Shown piece after piece: positions 10,691 through 53,600 of a stretch of 64,000 nt of DNA. This DNA comes from Alphaproteobacteria bacterium (lineage in GTDB: Bacteria; Pseudomonadota; Alphaproteobacteria; Sphingomonadales; Sphingomonadaceae). The stretch is taken from assembly GCA_005883305.1 (NCBI GenBank), contig VBAC01000001.1, positions 1,984,001-2,048,000 on the forward strand, written 5' to 3'. Under the pieces are notes generated by a model, which was given only the letters and a program-made list of their open reading frames with translations, had not been told where the DNA came from and did not search any database. Within the stretch, counting starts at the first letter, position 1. The number at the start of each line of letters is the position of its first letter. The translations under genes were made by a program, and so were the position numbers.

Positions 10691-12766
<2,076 letters not shown>

Positions 12767-13373: not shown

Positions 13374-13745
13374 TTATTTGGGGCGCTTGGCGCCGTATTT
13401 CGAACGGCTCTGGCGGCGGTCCTTCACACCCTGGGTGTCGAGCACGCCGCGAAGCACGTGATAGCGAACGCCCGGAAGGTCGCGCACACGGCCGCCGCGG
13501 ATCAGCACGACGCTGTGCTCCTGGAGGTTGTGGCCCTCGCCGGGAATGTAGCTGATCACCTCGCGCTGGTTGGTCAGGCGGACCTTGGCCACCTTGCGCA
13601 GAGCCGAGTTCGGCTTCTTCGGGGTCGTCGTATAGACTCGGGTGCAGACTCCGCGCTTTTGCGGGTTCTGCTCCATCGCAGGGACCTTGGACTTGGCCTT
13701 CTGCGGGTCGCGACCCTTGCGGATCAGCTGGTTGATCGTCGGCAT
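13374..13745 (-). CDS. rpsL: 30S ribosomal protein S12 (Arg at position 88)
   Basis: Decoding-centre protein, 123 aa, first gene of the str operon. [13 protein letters not shown] (Lys43 retained) and [17 protein letters not shown] are intact. The next motif reads [13 protein letters not shown]: residue 88 counting Met1 is Arg (CGC codon) where E. coli has Lys. Lys-to-Arg at this site is a known streptomycin-resistance substitution in E. coli and Mycobacterium. Here it looks native, perhaps lineage-wide in sphingomonads. Confidence 0.98.
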
Positions 13746-24456: not shown

Positions 24457-27400
24457 TCACCAAGGAGCGAAGGTATCACGAATCCACTGGGGGGCCGAGG
24501 CGTAAGGGGGCGTGCTGCCTGCGACATTCGTCATTGTGAATCTCGAGCCATTCCAGCCGATCGCATTACTATTGCCTCCTTGCGCATAAATGCTCGGAAC
24601 TCGCTGCAACAGCACGTTCCCCGGATCGCCCACGCCCGGATATTCGCGGCCGGCGCCCGCGCCATGTTCGTGGCCGATGGCCAACAGGCCTCTCGGTGCA
24701 ACTGCCCGGCCCGAATCATCCGTTTGCGAAGACTGGTCCGCCCTCCCGATCGCGACGCCACCACTCGAAGTCGTGGCGGTAAAGACCTGTTCCACTGTCC
24801 CGCTCATAGCATTCGTGAGGCCGGTGCCAATTGCCCCACTGGGGGCATTCACCCTCATGTCAGCGACAACCGCAGGGTCCAGCCGACCCAATGAATTGAG
24901 CTGGGTTCTGAGAGTAGCGATACGGGCGTTATCAGAACCAGCTCGCAACCTGCTTCCCTCAGCGGGCTGATCGGCCGCTCGTATGTCGCGTCGGATAGCC
25001 CCCATCAAAGATCTTATTGTCTGTCGCGCTCTGCGGATTTCATCATCCGTCGCCATCCCGGTCGGATCGACTCCGTTCACCGGATCATTGCCCACATAGG
25101 CGTAGAGATTGATCTGATCGTCATACCCGATCGGATCGACCTGCAAAAACCGTCCCAGCGTCGGCGAGTAGATGCGGGCCTTGTAATAATACATGCCGAG
25201 CTCGCCCATCCACGCCTGGCCGGTATATTGGAATCTCCCCTGGTTGTTCGCGCCGGGGATGCCCCATTCGTCGTAGGCGTTGATCGCCAGCGGGTTGCCG
25301 CTCGCGTCGGTGACCGTGACGATCGTGCCCTGGTGGTCGCGGCGCAGGTAGCGGGCGTTGGACTGGGCGACGCTGCTGCCGCCATACCAGACCAGCGGAT
25401 CGTCGGCCCCTGAATCGGCGCCGTGGACGTAGCGGGCGAGCTGGTTGCCGGAGCCGTCATATTCGCCGACCAAAGCGTCGCCGTCGTAGAGATAGCGGAT
25501 CGTCTCGAAGCCCGGGGCCGAGCTCGTCCACAGGCGGCCCAGCGGATCGTAGCGCAAGGTCGCGCCGGTCGAGGTGGTGACGAGGCGGTTCTCGACGTCG
25601 TAGGTGAAAGTCCGGGTCCCGTCCGAGGTCAGATTGCCGTTGCCGTCATAGGTGAAGCTCGCGCCGCCGGCGGCGGTGTACTGGTTGAGCCCGTTGACGC
25701 TGTAAGTGCGGTTGACGTTGTAGGCGCCGCCCCAGGCATAGGCATTGTTGTTGCGGTAGCGAGACGTGATCTGGCTCGCCGCATTGTAGCCGAAGCTGTA
25801 GCCGACGCTCCCCGCGCCGCCCATATTGTGGCCGACATAGTTCAGCCGGTCGAGCGCGTCGTAACCATAGCCCGAATTGCCCGCGAGGGCGCCGGCATAG
25901 GATTGCTCGGTCACCGGACCGCGATCGCTGTAGGAGAAGCCCGAGAGCCAGCCCGTCCCCTGGTCCCGCACGATGTTCAGCCTGGAACGCGCGTCGTAGT
26001 CGTAGGTGAAAAAGACCCCATCGGGATGGGTGATCCTGCCCCGCCGGCTGGCGGCATCGTAAGCGTAGGTTAGCGACCGCGAGGTGCCGCCCATGTTGGT
26101 TGTCGTCGAGGCGAGCCGGCCGAAGCCGTCATAGGCGTTGGTGACGCCCTCGCCCGCCGTGCTGTCGAACCGGGCGTAGGTCTGCGCGTTGCGCAGATCG
26201 TAGCCGTAATAGACGTCGCGAGTGAAGCTCGGGTCGAGCCCGGAGCGCTCCGGCACGAGCTTCAGGATCATCCGGTTGAGATTGTCGTACTGATAGCTGA
26301 TGTATGAGCCGTCGCGCTTGCGCAGGCTCGTGCGGTTGCCGACCGCGTCGTAGCCATATTGTTCGTAATCGGACCAATTGACGCCGCCCGGGGACGTCGG
26401 GCTCGGCATCACCATATATTGCAGACGATCGAAGCCGTCGTAGAGGAATGTCGTGACGTTGGTGTTGGCGTCGTAGAGATGATCGCGCTGCCCGTTGGCG
26501 GTGTAGGTATAGGTGGCGTAATTCTGCTGCTGCGGCGTCAGATAGGCGCGGATCTCCTGGAGCAGCTGTCCGGCGGCATCGTAGCTGTTGACCGTGATCC
26601 GGTCCGGGCCCTGACTGCCGGCGGTGGTATGGGCGCAGGCGCCCGGCATCTGGCCGAAGGCGGCGGGATTCATCCGAACCGCGGTGCAGGTCAGCCGGCC
26701 CCGGTCGTCATAAGCCTTGTCGGTGACCGCGTAGGTGGTCCCGCCCGACGACACCGCCGCGCGGATCGGGTTTCGGTGGCTGTCATAGCTGACGTCGGTG
26801 CGGTTGAGCACGGTGAGGCTCGCGCTGTCGAAGGTTGGGATGGTGCCGATCTCGGAATAAAGCGGCTTGTCGTCCGCATCGCGATAGGTGATGCGCGTCG
26901 CCACCCTGACGCCGTTCGGCGCCGCTGCGCTGATCTCCCAGGTCTTGCGGCCCAGGACGTCGTAGCGGGCATAGGTGGCGTCCGCGGTTCCATCGAGTGG
27001 TCCGTCGGTCATCGTCAGCCGCCCGGCCGCGTCGTAGGCGTAGGCCGTGGTCAAGGTTAGCCCGGTCGCGGCATCGGTCTGGCGCATCGCGCTCGGAAGC
27101 GGGGCCGCGGCCGGAAGGTTGGGCGCGAGATAATCGTAAGCGGTGCGGATCGGGGCGTTGGCCGCACAGGTCGCGCCCGTGTCGCTGCAGACGCGAACCT
27201 CGCTTCTCCGGCCGAAGCCGTCGTAGATCGTCGACGTCCGGCGCCGGACGCCGGTGGCGTCGGCGGGGTCGATCCGCTCGGTCAGCTGGCCGCCGCTGTT
27301 ATAGGCATAATCGGTCTGCCGGTTCAGCGCATCGCGTGACGATGTGGGGCGGAAGCAGGACACGTCGGGGGCGATGATCGTGTCGCAAGAGGGGAAAGAC

Positions 27401-28650
27401 GCGGTCTCGGTGGCCGCGGCCTGGCCCGAGCCAGGCTTCGGCGTCGTCGTCCGTGAAACGACATTGCCGTGCTCGTCGTACAGGACGTTCGCGTAATTGC
27501 CCTCGGGCGAGGTGATCCGGACCGGGCGGTAGGCCTCATCGAACTGATAGGCCGTGGTCCGGCCGATCGAATCGGTCATGCCGGTCAGAACGACGCGCTG
27601 GTTGGAGATCGCGAAGGTGTAGACCTGGTTGAACCCGTTCGGGCCGGTGACGGCAAGGCGGGTATACCAATAGCTGCCCGTCTGCGCGTGGAAATAGGGC
27701 GCGCCGCCATTGTAGGTGTAGCTGTAATTGTACGTGACGCCGTCGCGGACGACCGAGGCGACGAGTGGCTGCGTCGCGGCCGTCACCTGCCGGGCCGGCG
27801 CGCTCTCGCCGGGCAAGGTGAGGCTTCCGGCCGTCGTCTCGATATCGGCTCCAAGACCGTTGTTGCAGCCGCTGCAGGTGTAGACCCGGCCGGCAAGGTC
27901 GGTGATCGTGCTGCCGGAATAGGTCAGCCGGCCGAGCGGGATGGTCGGCGCCGACAGCGAATAGAGCGTGACCACCGAGGGGGTGCCCCATGCACCGGGA
28001 TCGCCGTTGAAGTCGTTGCCCTGATAGGTGATCGATATCTCGTAGCCGTAGCTGCTCGTCACCCGGATCGGCCGGTAGAAGCGACGGTTGGGGATGAAGT
28101 CGCCGGCGAGCATGGCGGTGTCGTAGCTGTAGCTGATCGATTCGCCGTTCGGGTGGGTGACGCTCGACGCATAGGCCTGGAACACGCCGGGATTGCCGGT
28201 CGTGTTCACATGCACATTGGTGAAATTCCAGTTGGCTGCGGTGCCGGCTTGGCGGAACGTGGCGTTCGGGCGGAAATAGGATCCCGTTCCCGTGACGCTG
28301 GTGCAGTCCGCGACGTCGATGCAGCGGAAGGATTCGGAACCGCCGGTGCCGGTGTGCACCGTATAGTTGCCGGTCGGATATTCGCCGGGACCGCCATATT
28401 TGCGGCCGATGACATAGGGGGCTGCGTTCTGGACCCGGTCGAACCGGAGGTTGGGCGCGCCCGGCACCGACAGCACCGGCGGCTCGATCGTGGTTTTGCC
28501 GGTGGTCAGGTTCACCCCGTTGAGGTCGCTCTCGACGCGGAGCGGCGACACCGTCGGCGGAATGTCCTGCGCCTGTGCGGCGGCGCCCATCCCGATCGCC
28601 GCGGCGAATGCGAGTAGAGTGCGACCGCACCACCTCTTCGCCCGATCCAT
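24457..28650 (-). CDS. Secreted Rhs/YD-repeat protein with JAB-like C-terminal tip
   Basis: 1397 aa from ATG 28648-28650. A Sec signal ([20 protein letters not shown], ending AQAQD) leads a long series of YD repeats (for example [28 protein letters not shown]). Near residue 1190 the conserved Rhs core end [20 protein letters not shown] and GVDPTG appear, followed by a unique ~180-residue tip. In the tip, [20 protein letters not shown] followed by DPGNVL looks like the HxH...D metal site of JAB/DUF4329-type Rhs tips. The immunity candidate follows after 3 bases and the companion gene at 28686 precedes. Polymorphic toxin, possibly antibacterial. Confidence 0.85.
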
Positions 28651-28685
28651 TCTGCCCCCTTCGAACATGTCGAACTCCGCCCGCG

Positions 28686-29297
28686 TTAGTTGTTGCCGCA
28701 TGTGCCGCTGGTGATGGTGATGGTGAGCGATCCCGTCGCCTGGGCGCCGAGTGAATCCTGGACGACGTAGCTGACGTTGGCCGTGCCGGTGATCTCGTTC
28801 GGCGTGAACAGCACGCTCGTGCCCGAAATGGACGGCGTGCCCCGGGTCCCGCCGCCGGAAACGCCGACCAGCGAAAGCGGTGTGTTGCCGTCGGGATCGT
28901 AATCGTTGGCCAGCACCGCGAACGTCGTCGCCACGCATTTGGTCATTCCGCCGCTGTCGGCGACCGCGACCGGCGGCTGGTTTCCCGACGGCGGCGGAGG
29001 TGGCGGCGGCGGTGGCGGTGGCGAGCCCGAGCAGGATGTCGGGGGCGGCGAAGGAGCGGTGCCGCCCACGCCGGACACGGCATAGATGCAGCGATTTCCC
29101 GCCGGATCGTAGGCAAGTCCGGTCGACTGTCCGTTGCTGGTTCCGCCGGTGACTGTCGACTCGACGAGCCGGCCCAGCGGGTCATATTTGTAGACGACCG
29201 TTTCCTGGGCGAGGAGACTGGCCGGGATGATGACGGCGCCGATCGTCGTCCCCAGCAGCAAAGCCGGCTTCATTTTCACGCGCAGCTCCCCCTTCAT
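28686..29297 (-). CDS. Secreted companion of Rhs: YD motif, polyproline linker, Ig-like domain
   Basis: 203 aa. Probable signal peptide ([20 protein letters not shown], ending LLAQE; the start may be Met9). Residues ~30-70 carry one Rhs-like unit ([20 protein letters not shown]). A run of 11-12 prolines follows, then a cadherin/VCBS-like Ig domain ([30 protein letters not shown]). It ends 35 bases before the rhs start and is almost certainly in the same operon. It could be a surface partner or a recombination-derived piece of a longer ancestor. Confidence 0.75.
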
Positions 29298-34051: not shown

Positions 34052-34399
34052 TCAGGGAGCAATCTGCTCCTTGGTGGCTTTCCTGAGCGCCTCCTCGCCG
34101 AACTGATTGAGGCTCATGCCGGCCAGCTGCGCGGCGATAGCGGCTTCCGCGTGCGTGCCGGGGTCGACGCGCAGATAGACCACGCCCGAATAGGGCTTGT
34201 CGGGCTGCTTGCCGGCACGTGCGCACGTCTCGAGATAGTCCTCGACGGCCTCCTCGAACGCCGCGACCAAACCGTCGACCGTGTCCGAATGGAAGCCGAC
34301 GCCGTCCTCGATCCCCGCGATGTGGCCGAAAAAGATCCGGTCGTCCGCGTCGAACTCCACCCGGGCCGCGTAGCCCTTGTGCTTCAGAATGCTCGTCAT
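34052..34399 (-). CDS. hicB: HicB-type antitoxin
   Basis: 115 aa from ATG 34397-34399 (MTSILKHKGYAARVEFDADD). The partial RNase-H-like fold is seen in FFGHIAGIEDGVGFHSDTVD and AFEEAVEDYLETCARAGKQP; the C-terminal HAEAAIAAQLAGMSLNQFGE is a ribbon-helix-helix DNA-binding domain. Overlaps the toxin stop by ATGA, so toxin and antitoxin are coupled. Neutralises HicA and probably represses the operon. Confidence 0.85.
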   Translation of the reverse strand: MTSILKHKGYAARVEFDADDRIFFGHIAGIEDGVGFHSDTVDGLVAAFEEAVEDYLETCARAGKQPDKPYSGVVYLRVDPGTHAEAAIAAQLAGMSLNQFGEEALRKATKEQIAP

Positions 34400-34650
34400 G
34401 GCCTTGCTCCCAGCCTGATCAGGAACTCGCGCGCCTCGCGCACCTGATAGCGTTTCGCCGCGGGTTCCGGATGCGGCCTGTGAAACGTCTGAACCATCCC
34501 GTCCTTCTCGAACCTGACCCGCGATCCCCTGCCCTCGATCGTCCGGCAACCGGCAGATGCCAGCAGGCTTTCGATGTCGGACCAGGGAATGGAAGGCGAC
34601 ACCGGATCGGTGAAGACGGCGCGCAGGGTCTTTTTCTGCTTGCTGTTCAC
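34396..34650 (-). CDS. hicA: HicA-type mRNA interferase toxin
   Basis: 84 aa, dsRBD-like fold. Starts MNSKQKKTLRAVFTDPVSPS and contains IEGRGSRVRFEKDGMVQTFH then RPHPEPAAKRYQVREAREFL. It lacks the GSH form of the catalytic His; the candidate His is in TFHRPHP, a recognised variant of the family. First gene of the pair; ATGA overlap with hicB. Confidence 0.85.
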   Translation of the reverse strand: MNSKQKKTLRAVFTDPVSPSIPWSDIESLLASAGCRTIEGRGSRVRFEKDGMVQTFHRPHPEPAAKRYQVREAREFLIRLGARP

Positions 34651-35361: not shown

Positions 35362-35387
35362 GGGGACAGTTACTAGTAACTGTCCCC
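35362..35387. repeat. REP palindrome copy 1 near RAYT
   Basis: 26-base perfect palindrome with arm GGGGACAGTTACT. Lies 50 bases beyond the RAYT stop on its 3' side. Preceded by a repeated CCTTCGTCTTAGGG that also precedes the copy at 35411. Confidence 0.95.
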
Positions 35388-35410
35388 CTCTTCCCGCGCC
35401 CTTCGTCTTA

Positions 35411-35436
35411 GGGGACAGTTACTGGTAACCGTCCCC
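35411..35436. repeat. REP palindrome copy 2 near RAYT
   Basis: 26 bases, imperfect centre (ACTGGTAACC), immediately abutting the RAYT stop codon (35437-35439). Together with copy 1 forms a direct tandem pair separated by 23 bases. Confidence 0.95.
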
Positions 35437-36021
35437 CTACTTCCCCAACTTCAGTCGCCCTTTCACCTCCGCGGCACGGATCGCATCGCGATCCTCGTCG
35501 TCGAGCCCTGCGTCCAGAAAGGCACGCCAGTCGTCGACGCGCTCGCGGGCGGCCGCCATGTCGGTGAGTTCGTCAAAGCCGAGCCCAAGATGTGTCCGTG
35601 CGCTCGACCAGCGCCATTCCTCGGGGCGCTCGACAAGCCTTGCCCGAACCGGGTTGAGCTCGACGTAGCGTAAGCAGGCGTGAACATGTCCTTCATCCAT
35701 CGGGAAAGAGGCGAAGCGGCTCTGCCAGAGGTGTCCGCGCCATCCCTCGCGCTGATTGATTTCCCAAGTATAGCGCCGGTGGGCTGGCGCCAGCGCCGCG
35801 CGCAGCCCGTCCTCATGCGAAGGCACCAGCACCAGATGGACATGGTTTGGCATCAGGCACCAGGCCCATATGGCCGTGTTCGCTCTCACGCACCAGTAAT
35901 GCAGGAGCCCGGCATAGAGGGCGTAGTCGGCCTCTGAAAAGAAGGTCGGCTGCCGTCGGTTCCCGCGCTGGGTCACATGGTGCGGGACGCCCGCCAATAC
36001 CGTTCGTCCAACCCGCGGCAT
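35437..36021 (-). CDS. REP-associated tyrosine transposase (RAYT)
   Basis: 194 aa from ATG 36019-36021 (MPRVGRTVLAGVPHHVTQRG). The HUH-type core is WAWCLMPNHVHLVLVPSHED; the catalytic Tyr is probably that in ACLRYVELNPVRARLVERPE. This domesticated Y1 transposase acts on single-stranded REP DNA. REP palindromes lie on both sides (35362, 35411, 36043) and further away at 19764 and 37994, so this gene is probably the one that mobilises or once mobilised them. Confidence 0.93.
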   Translation of the reverse strand: MPRVGRTVLAGVPHHVTQRGNRRQPTFFSEADYALYAGLLHYWCVRANTAIWAWCLMPNHVHLVLVPSHEDGLRAALAPAHRRYTWEINQREGWRGHLWQSRFASFPMDEGHVHACLRYVELNPVRARLVERPEEWRWSSARTHLGLGFDELTDMAAARERVDDWRAFLDAGLDDEDRDAIRAAEVKGRLKLGK

Positions 36022-36042
36022 CACGCGAGGCTAAATGAAAAT

Positions 36043-36068
36043 GGGGACAGTTACCAGTAACTGTCCCC
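36043..36068. repeat. REP palindrome copy 3, upstream of RAYT
   Basis: 26 bases, GGGGACAGTTACC arm with imperfect centre, 22 bases upstream of the RAYT start codon. It completes the flanking of the gene. Confidence 0.95.
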
Positions 36069-36079
36069 AAAAATTTCGA

Positions 36080-36682
36080 CTATGGGCGCACCGGGGCGGC
36101 AGGCTCATCTGCATCGCCCCAAATCTCATCGTATATGTCACGCTCCTTGGGCCTTTTCTCCCATTCTTCCGCCCGCCGGCGCAAAGCTTCGGCGAAACGG
36201 CGTAGGGCCAGGAGACCTCCAAGGACCTGTCGGGGGGCAAGGCAGATCGCCCGTGGGTTCTCCCCGCCTACAGCGATGTGGAGCCAGTACGGGGGCTCAA
36301 AACCAAACGCGCTGTCGCCCGTCGCGCGCGAAAAGCTCTGTTCGATCGACACGGACAGGATGTCCGACAATTTCACTGGCAAGCCGCCAATGCTCCAGTG
36401 GCCCGTCAGCTTCCCGCCCTGCACGGCGAGCACCGGCGCGTCGGCAAAGAATCGGCTCGCAGCGCGATACGACCATGAGAGAGGGACGAATATGGTCATC
36501 AGGCCAACGCCGACATGAAGAGAAAGTTGGTCGAGGCCGAGCCTCACGCGAAACGCATGCGAAAAGACAAGGGCGAAGCAAAAGCCAAGCAAGGCCAGCG
36601 GTGCGACCATGCCAATGAAATCACGATAGAGCGGGCGGTATAGGCGGTCGCGCCGACGCCCCCGTCGCGCCACTTGCCTCAT
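36080..36682 (-). CDS. Membrane protein, former lpdA-operon partner
   Basis: 200 aa from ATG 36680-36682. Two membrane segments near the N-terminus (FIGMVAPLALLGFCFALVFS and HVGVGLMTIFVPLSWSYRAA), then a soluble ~120-residue part (VKLSDILSVSIEQSFSRATG). No family recognised. Its ATG overlaps (TGATG) the stop of the lpdA remnant at 36682-36684, so before the toxin-antitoxin insertion it was coupled to lpdA. A GTG one codon upstream is also possible. Confidence 0.65.
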   Translation of the reverse strand: MRQVARRGRRRDRLYRPLYRDFIGMVAPLALLGFCFALVFSHAFRVRLGLDQLSLHVGVGLMTIFVPLSWSYRAASRFFADAPVLAVQGGKLTGHWSIGGLPVKLSDILSVSIEQSFSRATGDSAFGFEPPYWLHIAVGGENPRAICLAPRQVLGGLLALRRFAEALRRRAEEWEKRPKERDIYDEIWGDADEPAAPVRP

Positions 36683-36850
36683 CACATATGGATCACCCGC
36701 CCATAAGCGTCGAGCACGCTCTCGTGCATCATCTCGCTCAGCGTCGGATGCGGGAACACCGTTTCATCAGCTCGGCCTCGGTCGTCTCGAGCTGGCGCGC
36801 GACGACATAGCCCTGGATCAGCTCGGTGACCTCGGCGCCGACCATGTGCG
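36682..36850 (-). pseudogene. Displaced 3' end of lpdA
   Basis: 155 bases (36696-36850) match the present lpdA end (37619-37774) with five substitutions and one missing base, about 96% identity. It encodes HMVGAEVTELIQGYVVARQL, then a frameshift at 36773, then HPTLSEMMHESVLDAYGRVI and a stop. Its last residues (GRVIHM) differ from the working copy (GRALHY). It is cut at 36850, where toxin-antitoxin DNA begins. The best reading is that this is the old gene end left behind by insertion. Confidence 0.88.
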
Positions 36851-36864
36851 ATCTCTTGTTGATG

Positions 36865-37215
36865 CTAGCCGGCCGCCGCCACCTTTTCGCGCTTCTCGAC
36901 TCTTGCTCCCGCCGCGGCTGCCGCTCCTTCCGCCTGCAGCACGATGCCGAGCGCCTGAAGCACGGAAAAGAAGGTTCCCAGAGTTGGATTCCCTTCCTCG
37001 TCGAGCGCTGCATAGAGTGACTGGCGCTTGATCCCCGTCCTGCGGGCGATCTCGGACATGCCGATGGCCTTGGCGATTACGCCGAGCGCATGCGCGACAT
37101 AAGCGGGATTGCCGGACTCGAGCGCGTCGTTGAGCAACTCGGCCTGCGCTTCGCTGCCGCCGAGAAACTCGGACGCGTCATAGGGGGTGGTAGCCCGGCT
37201 AGGGGTCGTTTCCAT
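36865..37215 (-). CDS. HigA-like antitoxin of an addiction module (COG3636-type)
   Basis: 116 aa from ATG 37213-37215 (METTPSRATTPYDASEFLGG), chosen because AAGGAAGG precedes it; Met at 37251 is an alternative. The helix-turn-helix is SEIARRTGIKRQSLYAALDE followed by GNPTLGTFFSVLQALGIVL, the typical end of this antidote family. Downstream of the toxin gene, as in HigBA order. Would bind and repress the palindromic promoter at 37550-37595. Confidence 0.88.
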   Translation of the reverse strand: METTPSRATTPYDASEFLGGSEAQAELLNDALESGNPAYVAHALGVIAKAIGMSEIARRTGIKRQSLYAALDEEGNPTLGTFFSVLQALGIVLQAEGAAAAAGARVEKREKVAAAG

Positions 37216-37260
37216 GATTAGATTGCCTTCCTTGGCATTACATTTGTCCATGCCGCAATT

Positions 37261-37548
37261 TCATAGGGCGGCGGCCATCTCCTTCGCCTTCCTGATGTCT
37301 CGATCCTGCGACGACTTGTCGCCGCCGCAGAGCAAGATGATCAACTCGTCGCCGCGCCGCGTAAAGTAGAGACGATAGCCCGGGCCATAGTCGATCCGAA
37401 CTTCGCTGACCTTGTCTCCCACGCTGCCGACGTCGCCGAGGCCGAAACTGAGGCGGGTGATCGCGATAGCGATCTTAGCCGCCGGCCTTTCATCCCGCAG
37501 CTTGCGCTGCCAAGCGATGAAAATTCGGGTCTTTTCGATCCGCGACAT
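37261..37548 (-). CDS. HigB/RelE-family toxin of the addiction module (COG3657-type)
   Basis: 95 aa, MSRIEKTRIFIAWQRKLRDE. Conserved features RIDYGPGYRLYFTRRGDELI and LCGGDKSSQDRDIRKAKEMA define the HigB-like addiction-module killer family. Ribosome-dependent mRNA cleavage is the expected activity. Only one base separates its ATG (37546-37548) from the operator, so its transcript is predicted to be leaderless or nearly so. Confidence 0.88.
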   Translation of the reverse strand: MSRIEKTRIFIAWQRKLRDERPAAKIAIAITRLSFGLGDVGSVGDKVSEVRIDYGPGYRLYFTRRGDELIILLCGGDKSSQDRDIRKAKEMAAAL

Positions 37549-37549
37549 G

Positions 37550-37595
37550 TGTCAGTTGTATTTGACATGCCCTCCAGTGTCAAATAAAAATGACA
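37550..37595 (-). promoter_or_regulatory. Nested promoter and operator of the toxin-antitoxin operon
   Basis: Two 18-base arms (37550-37567 and 37578-37595) pair as an inverted repeat with two mismatches. Each arm carries inner TGTCA/TGACA ends. Read on the minus strand TTGACA (37578-37583), 17 bases, TACAAC (37555-37560) forms a good promoter within the palindrome, so repressor binding would block it. Confidence 0.75.
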
Positions 37596-37604
37596 GGCCC
37601 TCGC

Positions 37605-39029
37605 TCAATAATGCAGCGCCCGCCCATAAGCGTCGAGCACGCTCTCGTGCATCATCTCGGAGAGCGTCGGATGCGGGAACACCGTTTCCATCAGCTCGGC
37701 CTCGGTGGTCTCGAGCTGGCGCGCGACGACATAGCCCTGGATCAGCTCGGTGACCTCGGCCCCGACCATGTGCGCGCCCAAGAGCTCGCCTGTCTTGGCG
37801 TCGAACACGGTCTTGACGAAGCCTTCCGCCTCGCCGAGCGCGATCGCCTTGCCGTTGCCGATGAAGGGGAACTTGCCGACCTTGACCTCGCGGCCGGCTT
37901 CCTTCGCCTTCGCCTCGGTCAGGCCGACGCTCGCCACCTGCGGGCGCGAATAGGTGCAGCCGGGGATGTTCCAGGTCTCGAACGGGTGCGGCAGGGGACA
38001 GTTACTAGTAACTGTCCCCACTTTCGCCTTCGCCATCTCGTGAGCGATCGCCTCGACGCAGACCACGCCCTCGTGGCTCGCCTTGTGCGCCAGCCAGGGC
38101 GGGCCGGTGACGTCGCCGATCGCGTAGATGCCCTCGACATTGGTGCGCCCGTAGCCGTCGGTGACGATATGGCCGCGCTCGGTCTTCACGCCGAGCGCCT
38201 CGAGCCCGATCTCCTCGCTGTTGGGGACGATGCCGATGGCGACGATGACGTGGCTGAAGTCCTGGACGCCCGCGCCCTTTATGGTCGCCTTGACGCCGGT
38301 CTTGCCGACCTCCAGCTTGTCGACGCCGGAGCCGACATGGAGCTTCATTCCCTGCTTGGTGAGCGCCTTGTGGACGAACGCGCTGACGTCTTCGTCCTCG
38401 ACGGGGAGGATCCGCGGCAGCATCTCGACGATGGTCACCTCGGCGCCCATGTCCGAATAGAAGCTGGCGAACTCGACCCCGATCGCGCCCGATCCGATGA
38501 CCAGCAATTTGCCCGGCATCTCCTTGGGCACCATCGCATGGCGATAGGTCCAGACGCGCTCCCCGTCGGCCTTGGCGAACGGCAAATCTCGCGCCCGCGC
38601 GCCGGTGGCGATCATGATGTGCCTGGCTGCGAGCTCGGTCGTCTTGCCATCCTTGGTGACCGTCAGCTTGCCCTTGCCCGAGATGATTCCGTCCCCCTCG
38701 ACGACCGTCACCTTGTTCTTCTTCATCAGCCCCTTGACGCCCATGTTGAGCTGCCCGGCGACCTTGCGGCTGCGCTCGACGATCTTGGCGAGGTCGAACG
38801 ACACCTTCTCGGCGCTGAGGCCATAAGCGGAGGCATGCGTCAGATAATGGTTGATCTCGCTCGTGCGCAGCAGCGCCTTGGTCGGAATGCACCCCCAGTT
38901 GAGGCAGATCCCGCCGAGTTTCTCCCGCTCGACGATCGCCACCTTGAGCCCAAGCTGCGAGGCGCGGATCGCCGCGACATAGCCGCCGGGCCCGGAGCCG
39001 AGGACGATGAGATCGTAGGTGTCAGGCAT
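37605..39029 (-). CDS. lpdA: Dihydrolipoamide dehydrogenase (E3) with REP-encoded insertion
   Basis: 474 aa flavoenzyme that reoxidises lipoyl groups of 2-oxoacid dehydrogenase complexes. FAD motif GSGPGGYVAAIRASQLG, redox disulfide C42/C47 in GICLNWGCIPTK, NAD motif VIGSGAIGVEFASFYSDMGA, active-site HPTLSE near the end. After HEGVVCVEAIAHEM, residues AKVGTVTSNCP are encoded by a REP palindrome (37994-38019), in frame, before HPFETWNIPGCTYSRPQ. The 3' end was replaced by the inserted toxin-antitoxin islet, giving GRALHY. Operon: pdhC-DUF559-lpdA. Confidence 0.95.
   Translation of the reverse strand: MPDTYDLIVLGSGPGGYVAAIRASQLGLKVAIVEREKLGGICLNWGCIPTKALLRTSEINHYLTHASAYGLSAEKVSFDLAKIVERSRKVAGQLNMGVKGLMKKNKVTVVEGDGIISGKGKLTVTKDGKTTELAARHIMIATGARARDLPFAKADGERVWTYRHAMVPKEMPGKLLVIGSGAIGVEFASFYSDMGAEVTIVEMLPRILPVEDEDVSAFVHKALTKQGMKLHVGSGVDKLEVGKTGVKATIKGAGVQDFSHVIVAIGIVPNSEEIGLEALGVKTERGHIVTDGYGRTNVEGIYAIGDVTGPPWLAHKASHEGVVCVEAIAHEMAKAKVGTVTSNCPLPHPFETWNIPGCTYSRPQVASVGLTEAKAKEAGREVKVGKFPFIGNGKAIALGEAEGFVKTVFDAKTGELLGAHMVGAEVTELIQGYVVARQLETTEAELMETVFPHPTLSEMMHESVLDAYGRALHY
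37994..38019. repeat. REP palindrome inside lpdA
   Basis: Exact 26-base copy of the REP at 35362 (arm GGGGACAGTTACT). It sits within an intact reading frame, encoding roughly GTVTSNCP. Insertion of a 26-base unit keeps frame only with extra flanking bases. Confidence 0.95.
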
Positions 39030-39040
39030 TGGGGGCTCCG

Positions 39041-39550
39041 TCAGCTAAGCCCCTCTCCCCTTGCGGGAGAGGGGTCGGGGGAGAGGGGTTGCGCCGCGTC
39101 CGCGGCGCTGGAAGACTCAAGCACCGCCATGATCGCTGCGGCCACGCCGTCGCTGTTCGCCAGGATATCGTTGTTCCAGAAGCGTAAGACGCGAAAGCCC
39201 TGCTCCATGAACCAGGCGTCGCGTTCGAGGTCGCGATCGCTCTCCGAGTGTTGGCCGCCATCTGCCTCCACGATCAAGCGATGTTCGAAGCAAACGAAAT
39301 CGGCAATGTAACGGTCGTCAAACACCGTTTGGTGCCGCCACTTGAACGCGCCCAGGCGCTTCGCGCGGAGTATAGTCCAAAGCCGCGCTTCGGCATCGGT
39401 TGGGTTAGTCCGCATGTGCTTCGCGCGTTGAAGCATCAGCGCGTGACGCGCCCTGAGCCGGGCGAGACTTTTCTGGCGGCTATCGCCACCGCCCCCTCTC
39501 CCCAACCCCTCTCCCGCGAGGGGAGAGGGGCTAGAGTGGGTGTCCCCCAT
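39041..39550 (-). CDS. DUF559 (Vsr-like) endonuclease-domain protein
   Basis: 169 aa. Core ~residues 45-150: NPTDAEARLWTILRAKRLGA, FKWRHQTVFDDRYIADFVCF, LIVEADGGQHSESDRDLERD. This is the DUF559 PD-(D/E)xK fold (D in IADFVC, E-x-D in VEADGGQH). The start [15 protein letters not shown] overlaps the pdhC stop (TAATG). N- and C-terminal sequences (SPSPLAGEG, LSPDPSPARGEG) are translations of the flanking repeats at 39493-39530 and 39050-39088. An internal start at 39436 is possible. Function unknown. Confidence 0.85.
   Translation of the reverse strand: MGDTHSSPSPLAGEGLGRGGGGDSRQKSLARLRARHALMLQRAKHMRTNPTDAEARLWTILRAKRLGAFKWRHQTVFDDRYIADFVCFEHRLIVEADGGQHSESDRDLERDAWFMEQGFRVLRFWNNDILANSDGVAAAIMAVLESSSAADAAQPLSPDPSPARGEGLS
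39050..39088. repeat. Inverted repeat, 3' side of DUF559 gene
   Basis: 39 bases built on CCCCTCTCCCC and its complement. Its reverse complement nearly equals the repeat at 39493-39530, so the DUF559 gene is framed by inverted copies. Confidence 0.9.
39493..39530. repeat. Inverted repeat, 5' side of DUF559 gene
   Basis: 38 bases, CCCCTCTCCCCAACCCC followed by a TCTCCC/GGGAGA stem. Read in the DUF559 frame as SPLAGEGLGRGGG. Related but divergent copies occur at 41461-41570. Confidence 0.9.
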
Positions 39551-40839: not shown

Positions 40840-40971
40840 CGAAACGGGTTTCCTCTTGCGAAGGGCCGGAGCGTCCAAACAGCAAAGGCGGCCTTATGGT
40901 CAAGCCTATAGCGGCGCCCGCTTGCGCGAATGATCGATCTGGCGCAACCGTTCCACCGAAGGGGGAGTGCG

Positions 40972-41433
40972 ATGCGCGCCTATCTGGTGGTCATGGACGA
41001 AACCGCGGAGGCGCTCTCCGCGCTTCGCTTCGCCGCGCGCCGAGCGGCGCTGTCCGGCGGCGGAGTCGAGATCCTGGCCCTCATCCCGCAACAGGAATTC
41101 GTCCAGTGGGGCGCGGTCCAGGAGGCGATGGAGGAGGAGGCGCGGCTTCGCGCCGAGGCGATGCTCGTCCAGGCGACCGGCGCGATCATGGAGGAGGCCG
41201 GGATCAAGCCCTCGATCACGGTGAGGCAGGGCGATCCGGTCAAGGCCGCCGCCGAGCTGCTCGCCGAGCGTGCCGATTATGCGGCCTTGGTCCTGGGCGC
41301 GGCGGCGGAGAACGGGCCCGGCCCGCTCGTAAGCCATTTCTCCGGCGCGGCGGCGGGATCGCTGCCCTGTCCCCTGATCATCGTCCCCGGCGGCCTCGAC
41401 GACGAGGCCCTGATCCGGCTGGCAGCCGTCTAG
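40972..41433 (+). CDS. Universal stress protein family
   Basis: 153 aa from ATG 40972, preceded by GGGGGAG. MRAYLVVMDETAEALSALRF with C-terminal VLGAAAENGPGPLVSHFSGA and AGSLPCPLIIVPGG. The G-x2-G...G-S pattern is of the ATP-binding UspA type, somewhat degenerate. Divergently transcribed from pdhC (132-base gap). Confidence 0.8.
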   Translation: MRAYLVVMDETAEALSALRFAARRAALSGGGVEILALIPQQEFVQWGAVQEAMEEEARLRAEAMLVQATGAIMEEAGIKPSITVRQGDPVKAAAELLAERADYAALVLGAAAENGPGPLVSHFSGAAAGSLPCPLIIVPGGLDDEALIRLAAV

Positions 41434-45012: not shown

Positions 45013-48000
45013 TCAGATCACCGTGAAATCGCTCGCGGTGAGCACCGTTCCGGCTTGCACGGTCGCGAACAGGATCGCTGCACCTGCGCCATTGCCGTCG
45101 GCGTCGAACAGGATCTGCCCGTTGGCGCTGTTGTAGATGATCCGGTCGTCGGCGTCGCCGGCGGCGGCGCCCGTGACGAACGCGCCCGCGGGCAGGGCCC
45201 CGGGGGTCAGCCCCGTGAACACTGCGTCGTCGAGGGCGATCGTATCGTCGGCGGCGTTGAAGTCGGCGATCGCGTCGACATTGCCGCCACCGAGCGCGGT
45301 GGTGAAGGCGAAGGTATCCGCCCCGCCATAGCCGGCCAGATAGTCCGCTCCCGCGCCACCGTTCAGCACGTTGGCGCCGGCATTGCCGTACAGCTCGTTG
45401 GCAAGTCCGTTGCCGGTGAGGTCGATCGCAGCGACACCCGATTGGCTGTCGGTTGACAGGACTTCGATCTCCTGGCCCGCACCGAGGGCATAGCTTACCT
45501 TCGCATAGACGACGTCTCGGCCGCCGCCTGCAGCTTCCGCCACATAATCGTCGGCGCTGTCCACTACGTAGACGTCGTTGCCCCCGAAGCCGGCCATATA
45601 GTCGGCCCCACCGCCGCCCTCGATAAAGTTGGCGCCGGAATTGCCGTAGATTTCCTGCGCCAGCGCGTTGCCGATCAAGGTCTGCGCGCCGGTGCCGGCC
45701 TGGTTCGACGAGGACAGGACCTCGATGTCGAGGCCCGCGGCCATCGTATAATCGCCGGGCGTGTAGATGACGTCGCGGGCGCCGCCGCCGGCATTCTCGA
45801 TCACGTGATCGCCGGGTCCGGCGACGAAATAGCGGTCGTTGCCGCCAAGCCCGATCAAATAGTCGGTGCCGCCGCCGCCTTCGAGGAAGTTATCGCCGGC
45901 ATTGCCGTAAATTTCCTGGCCGACCTCGTTGCCGACCAGCTCGAGCGGCGCCGTGTCCGCCTGGTTGGCCGCCGAAAGCACTTCGACGAAGACGTTCGGA
46001 TCCAGCTTGTAGTTGGTCTGGGCGTAGATGACGTCGCGCAGACCGCCGGCGGCCAACTCGACGACATCGTCGTCGGGATGGTCGAGGAGGTAGATATCGT
46101 TGAAGTTACCCCCGGCCATTCCGCTCGGGCCGGCCGGGCCGATCAGGAAATCTTCGCTGTCGACGCCGTTGATGGTCATCGTCACGGTCGCCGTGCTGCC
46201 GCCGTTCAGGGTGTAGGTGAAGGAGTCCTGCGCGGGCTGGTTGGTGGCGCCGGAACCCGGCGCCGGCGTCGCGTCGAAGGCGTGATTGGGCTCGTAGACG
46301 AAGCTGCCATTGGCCTGGAGGGTGAGGATCGCGCCCGAAGGGAGAATGATCTGCGTGCCGACGTTGGCCGGCGATCCGTTGACTGCGGTTACCGTCTTCG
46401 GGCCTCCGTCGGGATCGACATCGGCGCCCTGGCCATTGTTGGAGAAGACGTTTCCGGTCCTGCTGACGGCATTCTCCTGGAGGCCGAAAGAGTCGTTCAC
46501 CGCCACCGGGGCGTCGTCGACGCCGGTAAGCGCGAGGGTGGTGACTCCGATCAGCTGCGCGCCGATTCCGGTATCGACCGTGATCGTGACGCCGGAGCTG
46601 GTGCCCGTCGTGATATTATCGCCGCCCACGGAGACGCGCACCATCGACAGCGCTGTGGCATAATCGGCCGCGGAGGCGCTGCCGCTGAGGATGAGGGTTG
46701 GGGTACCCGCGCCGCTCGCGACGATCCCCGCCGGTATCGGCCCGGCCAGCGTCAAGGCGCTGCCGCCGGCGATCGTCATCGATCCGATGGGCACGCTCGA
46801 CGTCAGGGTGAAGCCGCCGGCGACGATGGGAACGGGAGGATCGCCCTCGGTGTAGCTGGTGGTGAAGCGCGCGTCGGTCGCGCCGTTGTCGAGGGTGGGA
46901 ATGCCGGCCGTCGAGCGGCCGAAGATGACATAGCCCGCGCCCTCGTCGGAGCCGAGCGCCCCCGGCGCGCCGACGATGATGTCGTCATAGCCGTCATTGT
47001 TGAGGTCGCCGCCGGCCGAGACGCTGATGCCGGCGAGGTCGCCGCCATTGTCGCCGATGATCCTGAACCCCTCGCTCGCGGTCATCGAGGCGAGGTCGAC
47101 GGTGCCGAAGCCGCTCGCTTTGCCGAACACGACGAAGGCGCCGCCGGCATCGTTGCCCGAGCCGTCGGTGCCGTTGGCGCCGATGATGACGTCGTCATAG
47201 CCGTCGCCGTTGACGTCGCCGGCGCCGAGCGCCGAGCCGGCGAAGTCGAACTGGTGGTTGTTGGCCAGCTTGAAACCGTCCGCGGGCGCCAGCGTGGCGA
47301 GATCGATCGAACCGAATCCGCTCGCCTTGCCGAAGATCAGATAGGTGTCGCCGGCCGAGGTGGCGCCCGGCTCGGTCTGACGCGGCGCGCCGACGAGCAG
47401 GTCGTCGAAGCCGTCGCCGTTGAAGTCGCCCGCGCTCGAGACCGCCGTGCCGGCCTCGGCGCCGTTGGCGGCGCCCTGGATGCGGAAGCCGTCGGCCGGC
47501 GCGAGCGCGGCGAGGTTGACGTTGCCGAAGCCCGCGGCCTTGCCGAACAGGACGTAGGCGGCGCCCCGGTTGGTCCCGCCGACGTCGGCGGCATAGGCGC
47601 CGACGATGATGTCGGCATAACCGTCATTGTTGATGTCTCCTGCCGAAGAGACGCTGATGCCGGCCCGCTCGGCGGTGGCGGCGCCGACGATGGAAAAGCC
47701 GTCCACGGGGGTGAGGGTCGTGACGTTGAGCGGTCCGAAGCCGGTGGCCTTGCCGAAGATGACGTAGGCGGTGCCGGTGTTGTTCGTGTTGCCGTCCGGC
47801 GCGCCGACGATGATGTCGTCAAAGCCGTCATTGTTGATGTCGCCCGCCGAGGACACGCTGTGCCCGAGCCGGCCGATCTGTCCGGTTCCGCCGATTTCGA
47901 ATCCGTCGGCCGGGGTGAGGGTGGCGAGCGAGACGTTGCCGAAGCCCGAGGCCTTGCCGAACACGACATAGGCCGCGCCGATGGAGTTCGTTCCGACGTC

Positions 48001-48375
48001 CTCCGCGCCGATGATGATGTCGTCATAGCCGTCGCCGTTGACGTCGCCGGCCGAAGCGACGCTGTAGCCGGCGGCGTCACCCTGCGCTTCGCCGTCGATG
48101 CGGAAGCCGTCCGCGGGCGTCAGCGAGCCGAGGAAGACCGTGCCGAACCCGCTCGCCTTGCCGAACACGACCCAGGTCGATCCGGCGCCCGAGACGCCGG
48201 CCGTCGAGGATGGCGAGCCGAACAGGAAATCGTCATAGCCGTCGCCGTTGACGTCGCCGGCAGAGGCCACCGAGAAGCCGACATTGTCGGTGATGACCGC
48301 GCCACGGACGACGAAGCCGTTGCTGCCAAGGAGGCCGAGATCGATCAGACTGGGAAAGCCGGGCATAGTCTTCAC
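45013..48375 (-). CDS. RTX-type secreted protein A: seven FG-GAP repeats, VCBS-like, RTX, type I signal
   Basis: 1120 aa from GTG 48373-48375 (MKTMPGFPSLIDLGLLGSNG; ATG 48366 is an alternative). Seven FG-GAP repeats (such as SVASAGDVNGDGYDDIIIG) probably form a seven-bladed beta-propeller. Then a cadherin/VCBS-like domain (DAPVAVNDSFGLQENAVSRT), then RTX units (YGNAGDNFLEGGGGTDYLIG). C-terminal type I secretion region ends LTASDFTVI. Calcium-binding and presumably exported by a Tol-type ABC system not in this window. Part of a tandem RTX cluster. Confidence 0.85.
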   Translation of the reverse strand: MKTMPGFPSLIDLGLLGSNGFVVRGAVITDNVGFSVASAGDVNGDGYDDFLFGSPSSTAGVSGAGSTWVVFGKASGFGTVFLGSLTPADGFRIDGEAQGDAAGYSVASAGDVNGDGYDDIIIGAEDVGTNSIGAAYVVFGKASGFGNVSLATLTPADGFEIGGTGQIGRLGHSVSSAGDINNDGFDDIIVGAPDGNTNNTGTAYVIFGKATGFGPLNVTTLTPVDGFSIVGAATAERAGISVSSAGDINNDGYADIIVGAYAADVGGTNRGAAYVLFGKAAGFGNVNLAALAPADGFRIQGAANGAEAGTAVSSAGDFNGDGFDDLLVGAPRQTEPGATSAGDTYLIFGKASGFGSIDLATLAPADGFKLANNHQFDFAGSALGAGDVNGDGYDDVIIGANGTDGSGNDAGGAFVVFGKASGFGTVDLASMTASEGFRIIGDNGGDLAGISVSAGGDLNNDGYDDIIVGAPGALGSDEGAGYVIFGRSTAGIPTLDNGATDARFTTSYTEGDPPVPIVAGGFTLTSSVPIGSMTIAGGSALTLAGPIPAGIVASGAGTPTLILSGSASAADYATALSMVRVSVGGDNITTGTSSGVTITVDTGIGAQLIGVTTLALTGVDDAPVAVNDSFGLQENAVSRTGNVFSNNGQGADVDPDGGPKTVTAVNGSPANVGTQIILPSGAILTLQANGSFVYEPNHAFDATPAPGSGATNQPAQDSFTYTLNGGSTATVTMTINGVDSEDFLIGPAGPSGMAGGNFNDIYLLDHPDDDVVELAAGGLRDVIYAQTNYKLDPNVFVEVLSAANQADTAPLELVGNEVGQEIYGNAGDNFLEGGGGTDYLIGLGGNDRYFVAGPGDHVIENAGGGARDVIYTPGDYTMAAGLDIEVLSSSNQAGTGAQTLIGNALAQEIYGNSGANFIEGGGGADYMAGFGGNDVYVVDSADDYVAEAAGGGRDVVYAKVSYALGAGQEIEVLSTDSQSGVAAIDLTGNGLANELYGNAGANVLNGGAGADYLAGYGGADTFAFTTALGGGNVDAIADFNAADDTIALDDAVFTGLTPGALPAGAFVTGAAAGDADDRIIYNSANGQILFDADGNGAGAAILFATVQAGTVLTASDFTVI

Positions 48376-48392
48376 TCACATTCGAGAAGGGG

Positions 48393-51247
48393 TCAGATCA
48401 CCGTGAAATCGCTCGCGGCGAGCACCGTTCCAGCCTGCACGGTGGCGAACAGCACGGCCGCCCCCGCGCCGGTGCCGTCCGCATCGAACAGGATCTGGCC
48501 GGTGGCGCTGTTGTAAATGATCCGGTCGTCCGCGTCACCCCCGGCGGTGCCGGCGACGAAAGCCGTGGCGGGGAGCGCGCCCGGCGTCAATCCCGTGAAC
48601 ACCGCATCGTCCAGCGCGATCTTGTCGGTGCCGGAGACGAAGTCGGCGATCTGGTCGACATTGCCGCCGCCGAGCGCGGTGGTGAAGGCGAACGTATCCG
48701 CGCCCCCGAAGCCCATCAGATAGTCCGCTCCCGCGCCGCCGTTCAGCACGTTGGCGCCGGCATTGCCGTAGATTTCCTGCGCCAGCGCGTTGCCGGTCAA
48801 GTTCTGCGCGGCGGTCCCGGCCTGGCTCAGGGAGGAAAGAATCTCGATCTCATTGCCTGCAGCCAGCACATAGTCGCCCAACGCATAGAGGACGTCTCGC
48901 CCGCCGCCTGCAGCTTCCGCCACATAATCGTCGGCGCTGTCCACTACGTAGACGTCGTTGCCCCCGAAGCCGGCCATATAGTCGGCCCCACCGCCGCCCT
49001 CGATAAAGTTGGCGCCGGCATTGCCGTAAATTTCCTGCGCCAGCGCGTTGCCGATCAAGGTCTGCGCGCCGGTGCCGGCCTGGTTCGACGAGGACAGGAC
49101 CTCGATGTCGAGGCCCGCGGCCATCGTATAATCGCCGGGCGTGTAGATGACGTCGCGGGCGCCGCCGCCGGCATTCTCGATCACGTGATCGCCCGGGCCG
49201 GCGACGAAATAGCGGTCGTTGCCGCCAAGCCCGATCAAATAGTCGGTGCCGCCGCCGCCTTCGAGGAAATTGTCGCCGGCATTGCCGTAGATGGCCTGGT
49301 CGAAGCCGTTCCCGACCAGCACCGAATCGGTGGCCGCATCCTGGCTGATGGCGGACAGGACTTCGATCTCTGCCTTGTCGCCCAAGTGGAAGTCGGAGCG
49401 GCTATAGACCACGTCGAAGCCTTCCCCGCGCGTTCAAGGACCGTGTCGGTTACACCATCCACGATGTAGACGTCGTCGCCCGCGCCCCCCTTCATGGTGT
49501 CCGCGCCGCCACCGCCCTCGAGCAAATCATTGCCGTCGTTACCGAACAATCGATCGTCACCGCCCTGGCCGTCGAGTTGGTCGTCGCCGCCGCCGCCTGC
49601 GAGCGTTTGGCCGGCGATCGTGCCCCTGCGGACGACTCCGGTGGCGGGCGCAATGCCGTACAGGACATAGGCCTCGCCGGCATCGGTGCCGCCGTCGTCA
49701 CCCCGATATGCCCCGACGATGATCTCGGAAAAGCCATCGCCATTGATATCGGCGGAAGAGACGTTGCCGGCGAGATCGCCCGCTTCATCGCCCTGGATAA
49801 TGAAGCCGTCGGTCGGATCGAGCGAAGTCAGGTCGATGATCCGGCGGCCGGTTCCGTCGATCGTTCCGAAGGCATCGCCGCGGCCGAACACGACATAGGC
49901 CTCACCGGCATCGACTCCGCCATCGTCGCCGAAATGGGCACCGACGATGATGTCGTCGAAGCCATCGCCGTCGACATCCCCGGCCGGCGAAACGCTGCGG
50001 CCAGCGAGATCACCGGCTTCGTCGCCCTGTATGACGAAGCCATCGACAGGCGCGAGCGAGGCAAGGTCAATCACCCGCCGGCCGGTGCCGTCGATCGTGC
50101 CAAAAGCGCCGGCGTGGCCGAACAGGACATAGGCTTCCCCGGCGTCGAGGCCGCCATCGTCCCCGAAATGGCCGCTGATGATGAAATCATCGAAGCCGTC
50201 GCCGTTGATGTCGCCGGCCGAAGCTACGCTGCGGCTGGCGAGGTCGGTCATCGCGTCGCCCTGAACTATGAATCCATCGCTCGGGGCGAACGTAGCCAAG
50301 TCCACGACGAGGCGGCCGGTGCCATCGACCGCACCGAAGGTGCCCGCGCGGCCCAAAAAGACATAGGCCTCGCCCGCTTCAGGGGCACCATCGTCGCCGC
50401 CATCCGCACCGACGATGAAATCGGCGAATCCGTCGCCATTGATGTCTCCGGCCGAAGCGACCGAAAAACCGGCGAAATCCAGCGCTTGGTCGCCTTGCAC
50501 GACGAAACCGTCGGAAGGCGCGAGGGAGGCGAGGTCAATCGTCGCGCGGCCGCTGCCGTCGATCGTGCCGACGGGCCCGGCGTGGCCGTAGAGGACATAG
50601 GCCTTGCCGGTCCCGGTGCCATAGAGACCGCCATAAGCGCCGATGACGAGGTCGGCGAAGCCATCATTGTTTATGTCGCCGGCCGAAGCGACGCTGTCGC
50701 CCGTTTCGTCATTCGCGGCGTCGCCCTGAATAACGAATCCCTCACTGGGAGCCAGCGAAGTCATGTCCAGAACCCGGCGGCCTGCGCCATCGATTGTGCC
50801 GAAGTCGCCTGCGTGGCCGAAGAGGACATAGGCTTCGCCGGCATCGAGGCCGCCGTCGTCGCCGAGCGAAGCACCGACGATGATGTCACCGAAGCCATCG
50901 CCGTTGAAGTCGCCGGCCGAGGCGACCCAGCGGCCGAAGAAGTCCCCTGCCGCGTCGCCTTGGAGCACGAAGCCGTCGGATGGGGCGAGCGAAGTCAGGT
51001 CGATCACTCGTCGGCCGGTGACGTCGACCGTGCCGTAGGCGCCGGCGTGGCCGAACAGGACATAAGCTTCGCCGGCATCGACTCCGCCCTGGTCTCCGGA
51101 AAAGGCGCCGACGATGAAATCCTCAAAACCATCGCCGTTGACGTCACCCGCTGAAGAAACGCAGAAACCCGCGGAATCGCCCGCTTCGTCGCCTTGGACG
51201 ACGAAACCGGTATCCGGCCCAAGGGTTGAGAGGTCGATTACGGTCAA
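48393..51247 (-). CDS. RTX-type secreted protein B: seven FG-GAP repeats plus RTX, internal frameshift
   Basis: About 951 aa if the frameshift is bridged. TTG start 51245-51247 (TTGACCGTAATCGAC), with GGGAG about 10 bases upstream. Seven FG-GAP repeats, then RTX units. In a C4 run at 49424-49427 (G4 on the coding strand) one base is missing relative to the expected AGEGFDVVYSRS, so the reading frame splits into 51247-49235 and 49412-48393. The second part carries the RTX end and the terminal LAASDFTVI. Could be a true mutation, phase variation or a sequencing error. Its RTX stretch is near-identical to that of protein A. Confidence 0.75.
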
Positions 51248-51357
51248 CTTTGTTTTGCTCCCTCGCGACTCCGCGTTCTCGCGTCATCTTCGGGGGGCGT
51301 TGGCCGGGACCCGCATCGGGGTCAATCCAGTGAATACCATGGGTCGAGGCGGGCGCC

Positions 51358-53505: not shown

Positions 53506-53600
53506 GTTCTGCGCTCCGGCATCGTGGCTGTCGCTTCAGCCATGACGGATTTCGCGAATCGGATCAACGCGATGGCTGAGGCGCCCCGTCCGGATTCGGG

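Follow-up and report, generated by a model that had tools for sequence, protein, structure and literature searches.

Two lpdA ends on either side of a toxin-antitoxin islet

The locus described here raises the question of how a small toxin-antitoxin (TA) operon came to lie directly behind a housekeeping gene, between two copies of that gene's 3′ end. It is found in a 64,000-nucleotide stretch (the window) of contig VBAC01000001.1 from a member of the Sphingomonadaceae, whose 3.03-Mb genome consists of three contigs and is labelled G000 in the comparisons below. On the minus strand, lpdA, the gene for dihydrolipoyl dehydrogenase, is followed by a 760-bp islet that includes a TA pair of the HI1419/HI1420 family, then by a displaced and frameshifted copy of the lpdA end, and finally by an open reading frame (ORF) at 36080–36685 (Table 1). 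Our preferred explanation, to which we give a probability of roughly 0.55, is that the islet is a small selfish TA unit that inserted here and left a long target duplicate, one junction having formed through homology to lpdA and the opposite one through illegitimate joining. Insertion of this kind is already known; a TA pair at lpdA with allele-like copies on its two sides would be a new form of it.

An earlier note on this DNA had proposed a TA islet lying between the working lpdA end and a displaced, frameshifted copy, and the repeat alignment together with the family matches bears this out, with some adjustment of the measurements. The copies form a direct repeat of 164 columns with 94.5% identity (E = 6e-67 within the window), rather than the ~96% first given, and the islet does start at 36851 but ends at 37610 and not 37618, comprising 760 bp instead of 768. 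The displaced copy differs from the working end by eight substitutions and a 1-nt deletion. With the last 196 bp of lpdA as a query there are two matching places in the genome at E ≤ 0.001 and no third; a second lpd gene, which the earlier note had recognised as a possible source of the copy by simple duplication, is thereby discounted, the next best lpd in the genome being just 40% identical. The lpdA gene itself was found in all 41 genomes searched, and the top matches in the 14 nearest are 85–91% identical at the amino acid level.

Comparison of the two copies reveals a mosaic, with 147 of the first 153 nt identical and 8 of the remaining 14. Over the first 153 nt the two are closer to each other than to any of 35 compared sequences (next best 142/153). 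In the last 14 nt each follows a different natural type: the working end, which encodes GRALHY, is of the HY type (13/14 as in G003, and 14/14 as in two genomes of another genus), and the displaced copy, whose end would read GRVIHM, is of the HM type (11/14 as in G024, G004, and G114). The working end is identical to that of G003 over 19 nt, four of these beyond the stop codon, and judged by its sequence it is a genuine lpdA end and no chance product. In a tree of the tails, the displaced copy groups with the HM types of the same three genomes (ultrafast bootstrap 92), apart from the working end; these types include that of the nearest sampled relative, G024. A donor allele on the homologous side would account for the change of type over the final 14 nt and for the tail tree; no donor sequence was found.

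An insertion of the kind we favor could have proceeded as follows. DNA of a close relative, carrying the module directly behind its lpdA, would have been taken up, and at one end homologous recombination inside the lpdA 3′ region would have produced a working gene composed of resident and then donor sequence, ending GRALHY. Illegitimate joining would have placed the other junction some 164 bp short of the resident gene's end, such that the resident 3′ end (GRVIHM) was kept and pushed downstream, there to lose its function and gain a frameshift. Such an insertion would be tolerable because lpdA is restored whole; it would be near neutral, and the addiction pair would then resist loss. The mosaic supports the homologous joining on the lpdA side, and we infer the illegitimate joining, the donor, and the direction. 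The G000 genome encodes ComEC, which permits natural transformation and is no demonstration of it.

Repeat-flanked modules at other targets

We have examined 71 distinct HI1419/HI1420 modules, four of them in G000, some matched by toxin or antitoxin alone and with the two weakest matches left out, for direct repeats (E ≤ 1e-5) located no more than 200 bp away on each side of the module. Four of the 71 are closely hugged by repeats (55–164 bp), every one at a different target. Besides the lpdA module, these are a G011 module at the divergent gltX/comEC start region, with a 146-bp repeat (75% identity), a G008 module at the 3′ end of a PF00144 gene, with a 139-bp repeat (67%), and a G292 module at the 3′ end of an AMP-binding ligase gene, with a 55-bp repeat (93%). 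The gltX and comEC starts are 1073 bp apart in G011 and 102–246 bp apart in 24 of the 24 other assessable genomes of the genus, G000 included (one further genome has no gltX match, and its comEC match lies near a contig end). Because the site is uninterrupted and single-copy in all 24, the module and the 146-bp duplicate have evidently been added in G011; at lpdA the downstream sequence is unconserved, and G018 has an lpdA-end copy of its own. The best-scoring genus relative of the lpdA-side antitoxin is that of this same G011 module (75% over 114 amino acids), so close relatives of the module occupy unrelated targets.

Thirty more loci, not counted in the 71 modules beyond overlaps, were screened at E ≤ 1e-6 and yielded no entry; this screen also misses the G008 pair, which is among them, and is hence less sensitive. 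A second TA family, HicAB, was sampled at 28 loci from relatives, with a screen (E ≤ 1e-3) confined to the surroundings of the HicA match, and flanking repeats are present at three (L316, L334, and L328). At L316 the module is closely flanked by a perfect 37-bp repeat of the final bases of the gene before it, stop codon included; the 108-bp pair at L334 (71%) is doubtful, and the L328 repeat was set aside since it looks like GC-rich low complexity. Two further cases involve genes other than TA pairs: in G018, lpdA is separated from a 65-bp copy (85%) of its own end by an alpha/beta hydrolase gene, and in G005 the interval from pdhC to lpdA contains small ORFs set apart by two copies (93% and 80%) of the pdhC end. 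Because of these non-TA cases, the footprint could be a sign of islets of any kind in this group and not of TA pairs alone.

We also note that at the G005 locus (L140) 350 bp of the lpdA 5′ part is duplicated (79%; 10948–11297 and 13377–13723) between pdhC and lpdA, beside a pdhC-end copy. The window itself contains a second TA pair at 34052–34650, of HicA (PF07927) and HicB (PF05534), some 2 kb downstream of the islet.

Chance was considered as an origin of the abutting repeats and rejected, as no such pair is seen in any of 1149 pseudo-modules, which were drawn from 97 lpdA-neighbourhood loci and are overlapping and not independent; with the discovery case excluded, 3/70 modules against 0/1149 pseudo-modules gives a Fisher P of 2e-4. 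It is the abutting position alone that is telling, because direct repeats as such (45 bp or longer, E ≤ 1e-6) occur at 25/80 named lpdA loci, 0/29 family lpdA loci, 3/20 long congener loci, 1/26 comEC loci, and 4/62 module loci.

Integrative elements are known that use the 3′ end of a gene as attB, the attachment site, and restore the gene on entry, and the earlier note had likened the lpdA islet to these. The islet would then be a remnant or passenger of an element with a tyrosine recombinase for which the lpdA 3′ end served as attB, the gene being restored by the element's own copy. Points of likeness are that the islet lies at a gene 3′ end with the reading frame restored and the old end displaced, the G008 and G292 modules likewise sit at gene 3′ ends, and the 37-bp copy at L316 consists of a gene's last bases with the stop. 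However, there is no recombinase in the islet or in the scanned neighbouring ORFs (part of the window's ORFs), save a Y1-type transposase associated with repetitive extragenic palindromes (REPs); the modules of this one family are at unrelated targets, one a divergent start region; the repeats vary in length from 55 to 164 bp; and four islets inspected by eye show no shared end sequence. An lpdA-specific att site in particular is rejected, since the sister modules use unrelated targets with duplicates of other lengths. We thus consider integration at an att site distinctly improbable.

The transposase gene (35437–36024) scores above the cut-off for PF01797 and at 71 bits against a cut-off of 80 for NF047646, and is flanked by three REP-like palindromes (region 35362–36068). 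A palindrome of the same kind, GGGGACAGTTACTAGTAACTGTCCCC, lies in frame within lpdA at 37994–38019 and adds 13–14 residues that are present in none of 20 aligned relatives; it has nine further sites in the genome within two mismatches, and at L180 and L186 it is also apparently inside long open frames. It resembles palindromic elements known to enter genes without disturbing the reading frame. A role for REPs in the islet was rejected, the REP copies being outside the duplicated stretch.

Allelic copies, fresh duplicates, and the order of events

A second alternative is that staggered breaks or replication duplicate 50–160 bp of whatever target is hit, with copies that are identical at birth and diverge later, and no donor lpdA is needed. 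It accounts for variable-length duplicates of unrelated targets, such as passages of PMC3874152 and PMC1643837 describe for restriction-modification genes, and for the perfect 37-bp repeat at L316, which calls for no allelic donor. The nature of the differences between copies argues against it. Before the tail, the G000 copies differ at four codons, all four synonymous and one of them a TCC/AGC serine switch, and in the other repeat pairs the synonymous differences are 3/4 for G292 and 6/9 for the G005 pdhC pair; only pairs at least 90% identical were used (G000, G292, and G005), and G011 and G008, with many indels, were left out. The pooled count of 13/17 departs from a model of copies identical at birth with one copy dead (P = 0.003). 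Also, a single repeat pair here contains two natural and distinct lpdA end types. Because of this excess of synonymous differences and the distinct natural end types, it would seem that both ends were once in working lpdA genes; they look like different natural alleles, pieces of lpdA genes formerly in use, and not like a fresh duplicate. We therefore regard duplication of a single resident end as unlikely, though deserving of attention.

If the two ends are alleles, the question arises which of them is the newcomer. Among 21 congeners, the lpdA ends are HY in 12 (exactly GRALHY in five), HM in five, and HI in four. The earlier note had held that the GRALHY end came with the inserted DNA and had named module-free relatives ending GRALHY as evidence to the contrary; the two allele types are indeed present, but five of the 21 congeners do end in exactly these residues, none of the 20 long congener stretches has a matched module at lpdA, and the GRALHY end therefore need not stem from outside the genus. 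This finding is indecisive because the nearest sampled relative, G024, ends in GRVLHM and has no module beside lpdA. Its lpdA is 91% identical (amino acids), its pdhC 81% as compared to at most 78% in other congeners (alignments of at least 429 amino acids; two partial alignments of 230 and 301 amino acids, in two other congeners, reach 84%), and its gene matching 40912–41433 is 81% as compared to at most 78% in other congeners; G024 is a draft genome of 86% completeness.

The order of events could also be reversed, with an lpdA (GRALHY)-higBA arrangement as the resident and the GRVIHM end and the ORF at 36080 arriving later from a relative. HY is the commonest end type among the congeners, the match of the working end to G003 extends beyond the stop, and the ORF is in no other congener, all of which speaks for this order. 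It is opposed by the HM type of G024 and the grouping of the displaced copy with HM types, as well as by the absence of any matched TA module beside lpdA in 20 long congener stretches, in which pdhC, lpdA, and further upstream genes were matched and none of the searched ORFs downstream of lpdA was; the sequence downstream of lpdA is not conserved among congeners. The reversed order thus appears improbable, and the direction we prefer, with the GRALHY end and the module as newcomers, is probable; it is not proven, because the contrary evidence named in the earlier note is, taken literally, at hand.

The ORF at 36080–36685 also bears on an original coupling to lpdA. The old stop does overlap the start of this ORF (TGATG; ATGTGATG), as the earlier note had seen in taking it for the original junction. 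However, the ORF has no Pfam or NCBIfam match, no homologue in 25 of the 25 other congeners searched, and no relative on the plasmids or in the viral contigs searched, and there is a single weak match (E = 6.5e-4) among 396 other genomes of the family. Because it lacks a family match or a congener homologue, the argument for an original lpdA-ORF coupling leans on an unproven gene, and the module-free strain predicted in the earlier note, with a GRVIHM lpdA coupled to this ORF, was not found.

Several observations weigh against an insertion of the type we favor. Besides the prevalence of HY over HM ends in congeners (12 versus 5 of 21), which would allow the working end to be the original, the tail tree has 168 nt only, and in the body tree support for the position of G000 is low, at 44 or less. 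The pooled synonymous test becomes weaker, at 13/20 (P = 0.027), if the three tail codons of G000 are included. The pattern is limited to four of the 71 modules, and the G012 module, second nearest by its antitoxin (80% over 102 amino acids), is without a flanking repeat, its locus being broken by a run of Ns. More distant flanking repeats (within 1200 bp) occur in 24/1149 pseudo-modules; the G018 and G005 cases are included in these, and many share one position, which we take to represent lipoyl domains of neighbouring E1/E2 genes. ComEC is also encoded in 10 of 14 control genomes, and says little on competence. Finally, the genomes searched include no donor with lpdA-higBA adjacency and no pair of strains of which one has the islet and the other lacks it.

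To our knowledge, little has been settled on the route by which integrase-free TA pairs pass from one chromosomal site to another. There is a precedent in insertion with long target duplication, the original description of which is said to be that of Nobusato et al. in 2000 (Gene 259:99). The parts of PMC1643837, PMC3874152, and PMC3031569 that we consulted report this mode for restriction-modification genes, with Helicobacter pylori as the first case, and a passage in PMC3874152 regards restriction-modification units as mobile units in their own right. The lpdA islet and its sister modules are similar in that a small addiction module lies between direct target duplicates of variable length, on the order of 100 bp (here 55–164 bp at four targets); they differ in that the module is a type II TA pair in Sphingomonadales and that the copies look like diverged alleles. 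Passages in PMC5361080 and PMC2884548 describe one-sided homology with displaced old parts, the former for type VI effector-immunity modules and the latter for small variable segments. As in that homology-facilitated illegitimate recombination and sequential effector displacement, we propose that homology anchors one junction, that the second is joined illegitimately, and that an old part is kept downstream; here, in contrast, a housekeeping gene serves as the anchor and a TA pair is what is carried in. In the portion of the literature that we searched, the footprint is described for restriction-modification genes and for no TA pair, which is no proof that it is unreported.

The footprint, a minimal TA operon between gene-edge copies, recurring at genes unrelated to one another and with relatives in which the site is uninterrupted, offers a means to recognise, count, and date insertions, and links TA pairs to the mode of insertion reported for restriction-modification genes. 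Its enrichment at TA loci needs to be weighed against other small operons. As a broader proposal, which we consider doubtful, type II TA families (HI1419/HI1420 and HicAB) might spread in Sphingomonadales as minimal transposase-free mobile units that duplicate the edge of a neighbouring gene and thereby keep it whole; if so, orphan gene ends would be fossils from which past TA insertions could be counted and dated.

The toxin-antitoxin pair and other elements of the window

The two TA genes are adjacent, with the toxin gene upstream of the antitoxin gene, and both products score above the curated cut-offs of the family models TIGR02683 and TIGR02684, as is characteristic of HI1419/HI1420 pairs; the earlier label of HigBA-type is a fair loose name, and HI1419/HI1420 is the exact family. 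The pair is predicted to be functional, and the inverted repeat preceding the toxin gene is likely an operator for its autoregulation. There are four module copies of this family in the G000 genome. At E ≤ 0.01 the toxin has no PDB relative by sequence, and those of the antitoxin are HipB chains only. Pfam and NCBIfam scans of the islet show no gene family beyond the TA pair.

Table 1. Positions in the window of the features discussed.
Feature	Position	Strand	Basis or remark
lpdA, dihydrolipoyl dehydrogenase, 474 aa, intact, C-terminus GRALHY	37605..39029	-	Pfam PF07992, PF02852
Working lpdA 3′ end, one member of the direct repeat	37611..37774	-	94.5% identity to 36688–36850, 164 columns
Islet: TA operon and its upstream region, 760 bp between repeat copies	36851..37610	-	limits set by repeat alignment
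Inverted repeat upstream of toxin gene, 18-nt arms, 89% complementary; candidate operator	37550..37595	.	z = -3.1 versus shuffles, folded as DNA
Toxin gene, RelE/ParE-type, HI1419 family, 95 aa	37261..37548	-	TIGR02683 113 bits (cut-off 62.85); PF05973 24.9 bits (cut-off 23.9)
Antitoxin gene, helix-turn-helix, HI1420 family, 128 aa	36865..37251	-	TIGR02684 95.7 bits (cut-off 53.7); PF21716 79.3 bits (cut-off 27)
Displaced, frameshifted lpdA 3′ end copy, GRVIHM type	36688..36850	-	repeat alignment; tree grouping with HM-type ends
Orphan ORF, 201 aa, overlapping the old stop (TGATG)	36080..36685	-	two hydrophobic stretches, judged by eye

Plasmids and phages were considered as sources of the islet and rejected. 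With the islet alone as a query, 39 plasmid records match, all with 60–80% identity and in no case across 80% of the islet, and the annotated ones among the matches listed are TA genes; when parts of lpdA are added to the query, the matches listed are lpdA. For phages, the antitoxin was the sole query, and three phage records match at ~41% identity.

The window contains another displaced gene end, in the form of a 689-bp direct repeat (94%; 23263–23950 and 25058–25746) at the 3′ part of an Rhs gene (24457–29181, PF05593), with an apparent orphan tip downstream and small ORFs between. A DUF559 ORF (PF04480) is located at 39041–39550 between lpdA and pdhC. Large repetitive ORFs, at 45013–53535 and 60544–63999, have many internal and mutual repeats, and from their translated starts they may be FG-GAP and calcium-binding repeat proteins.

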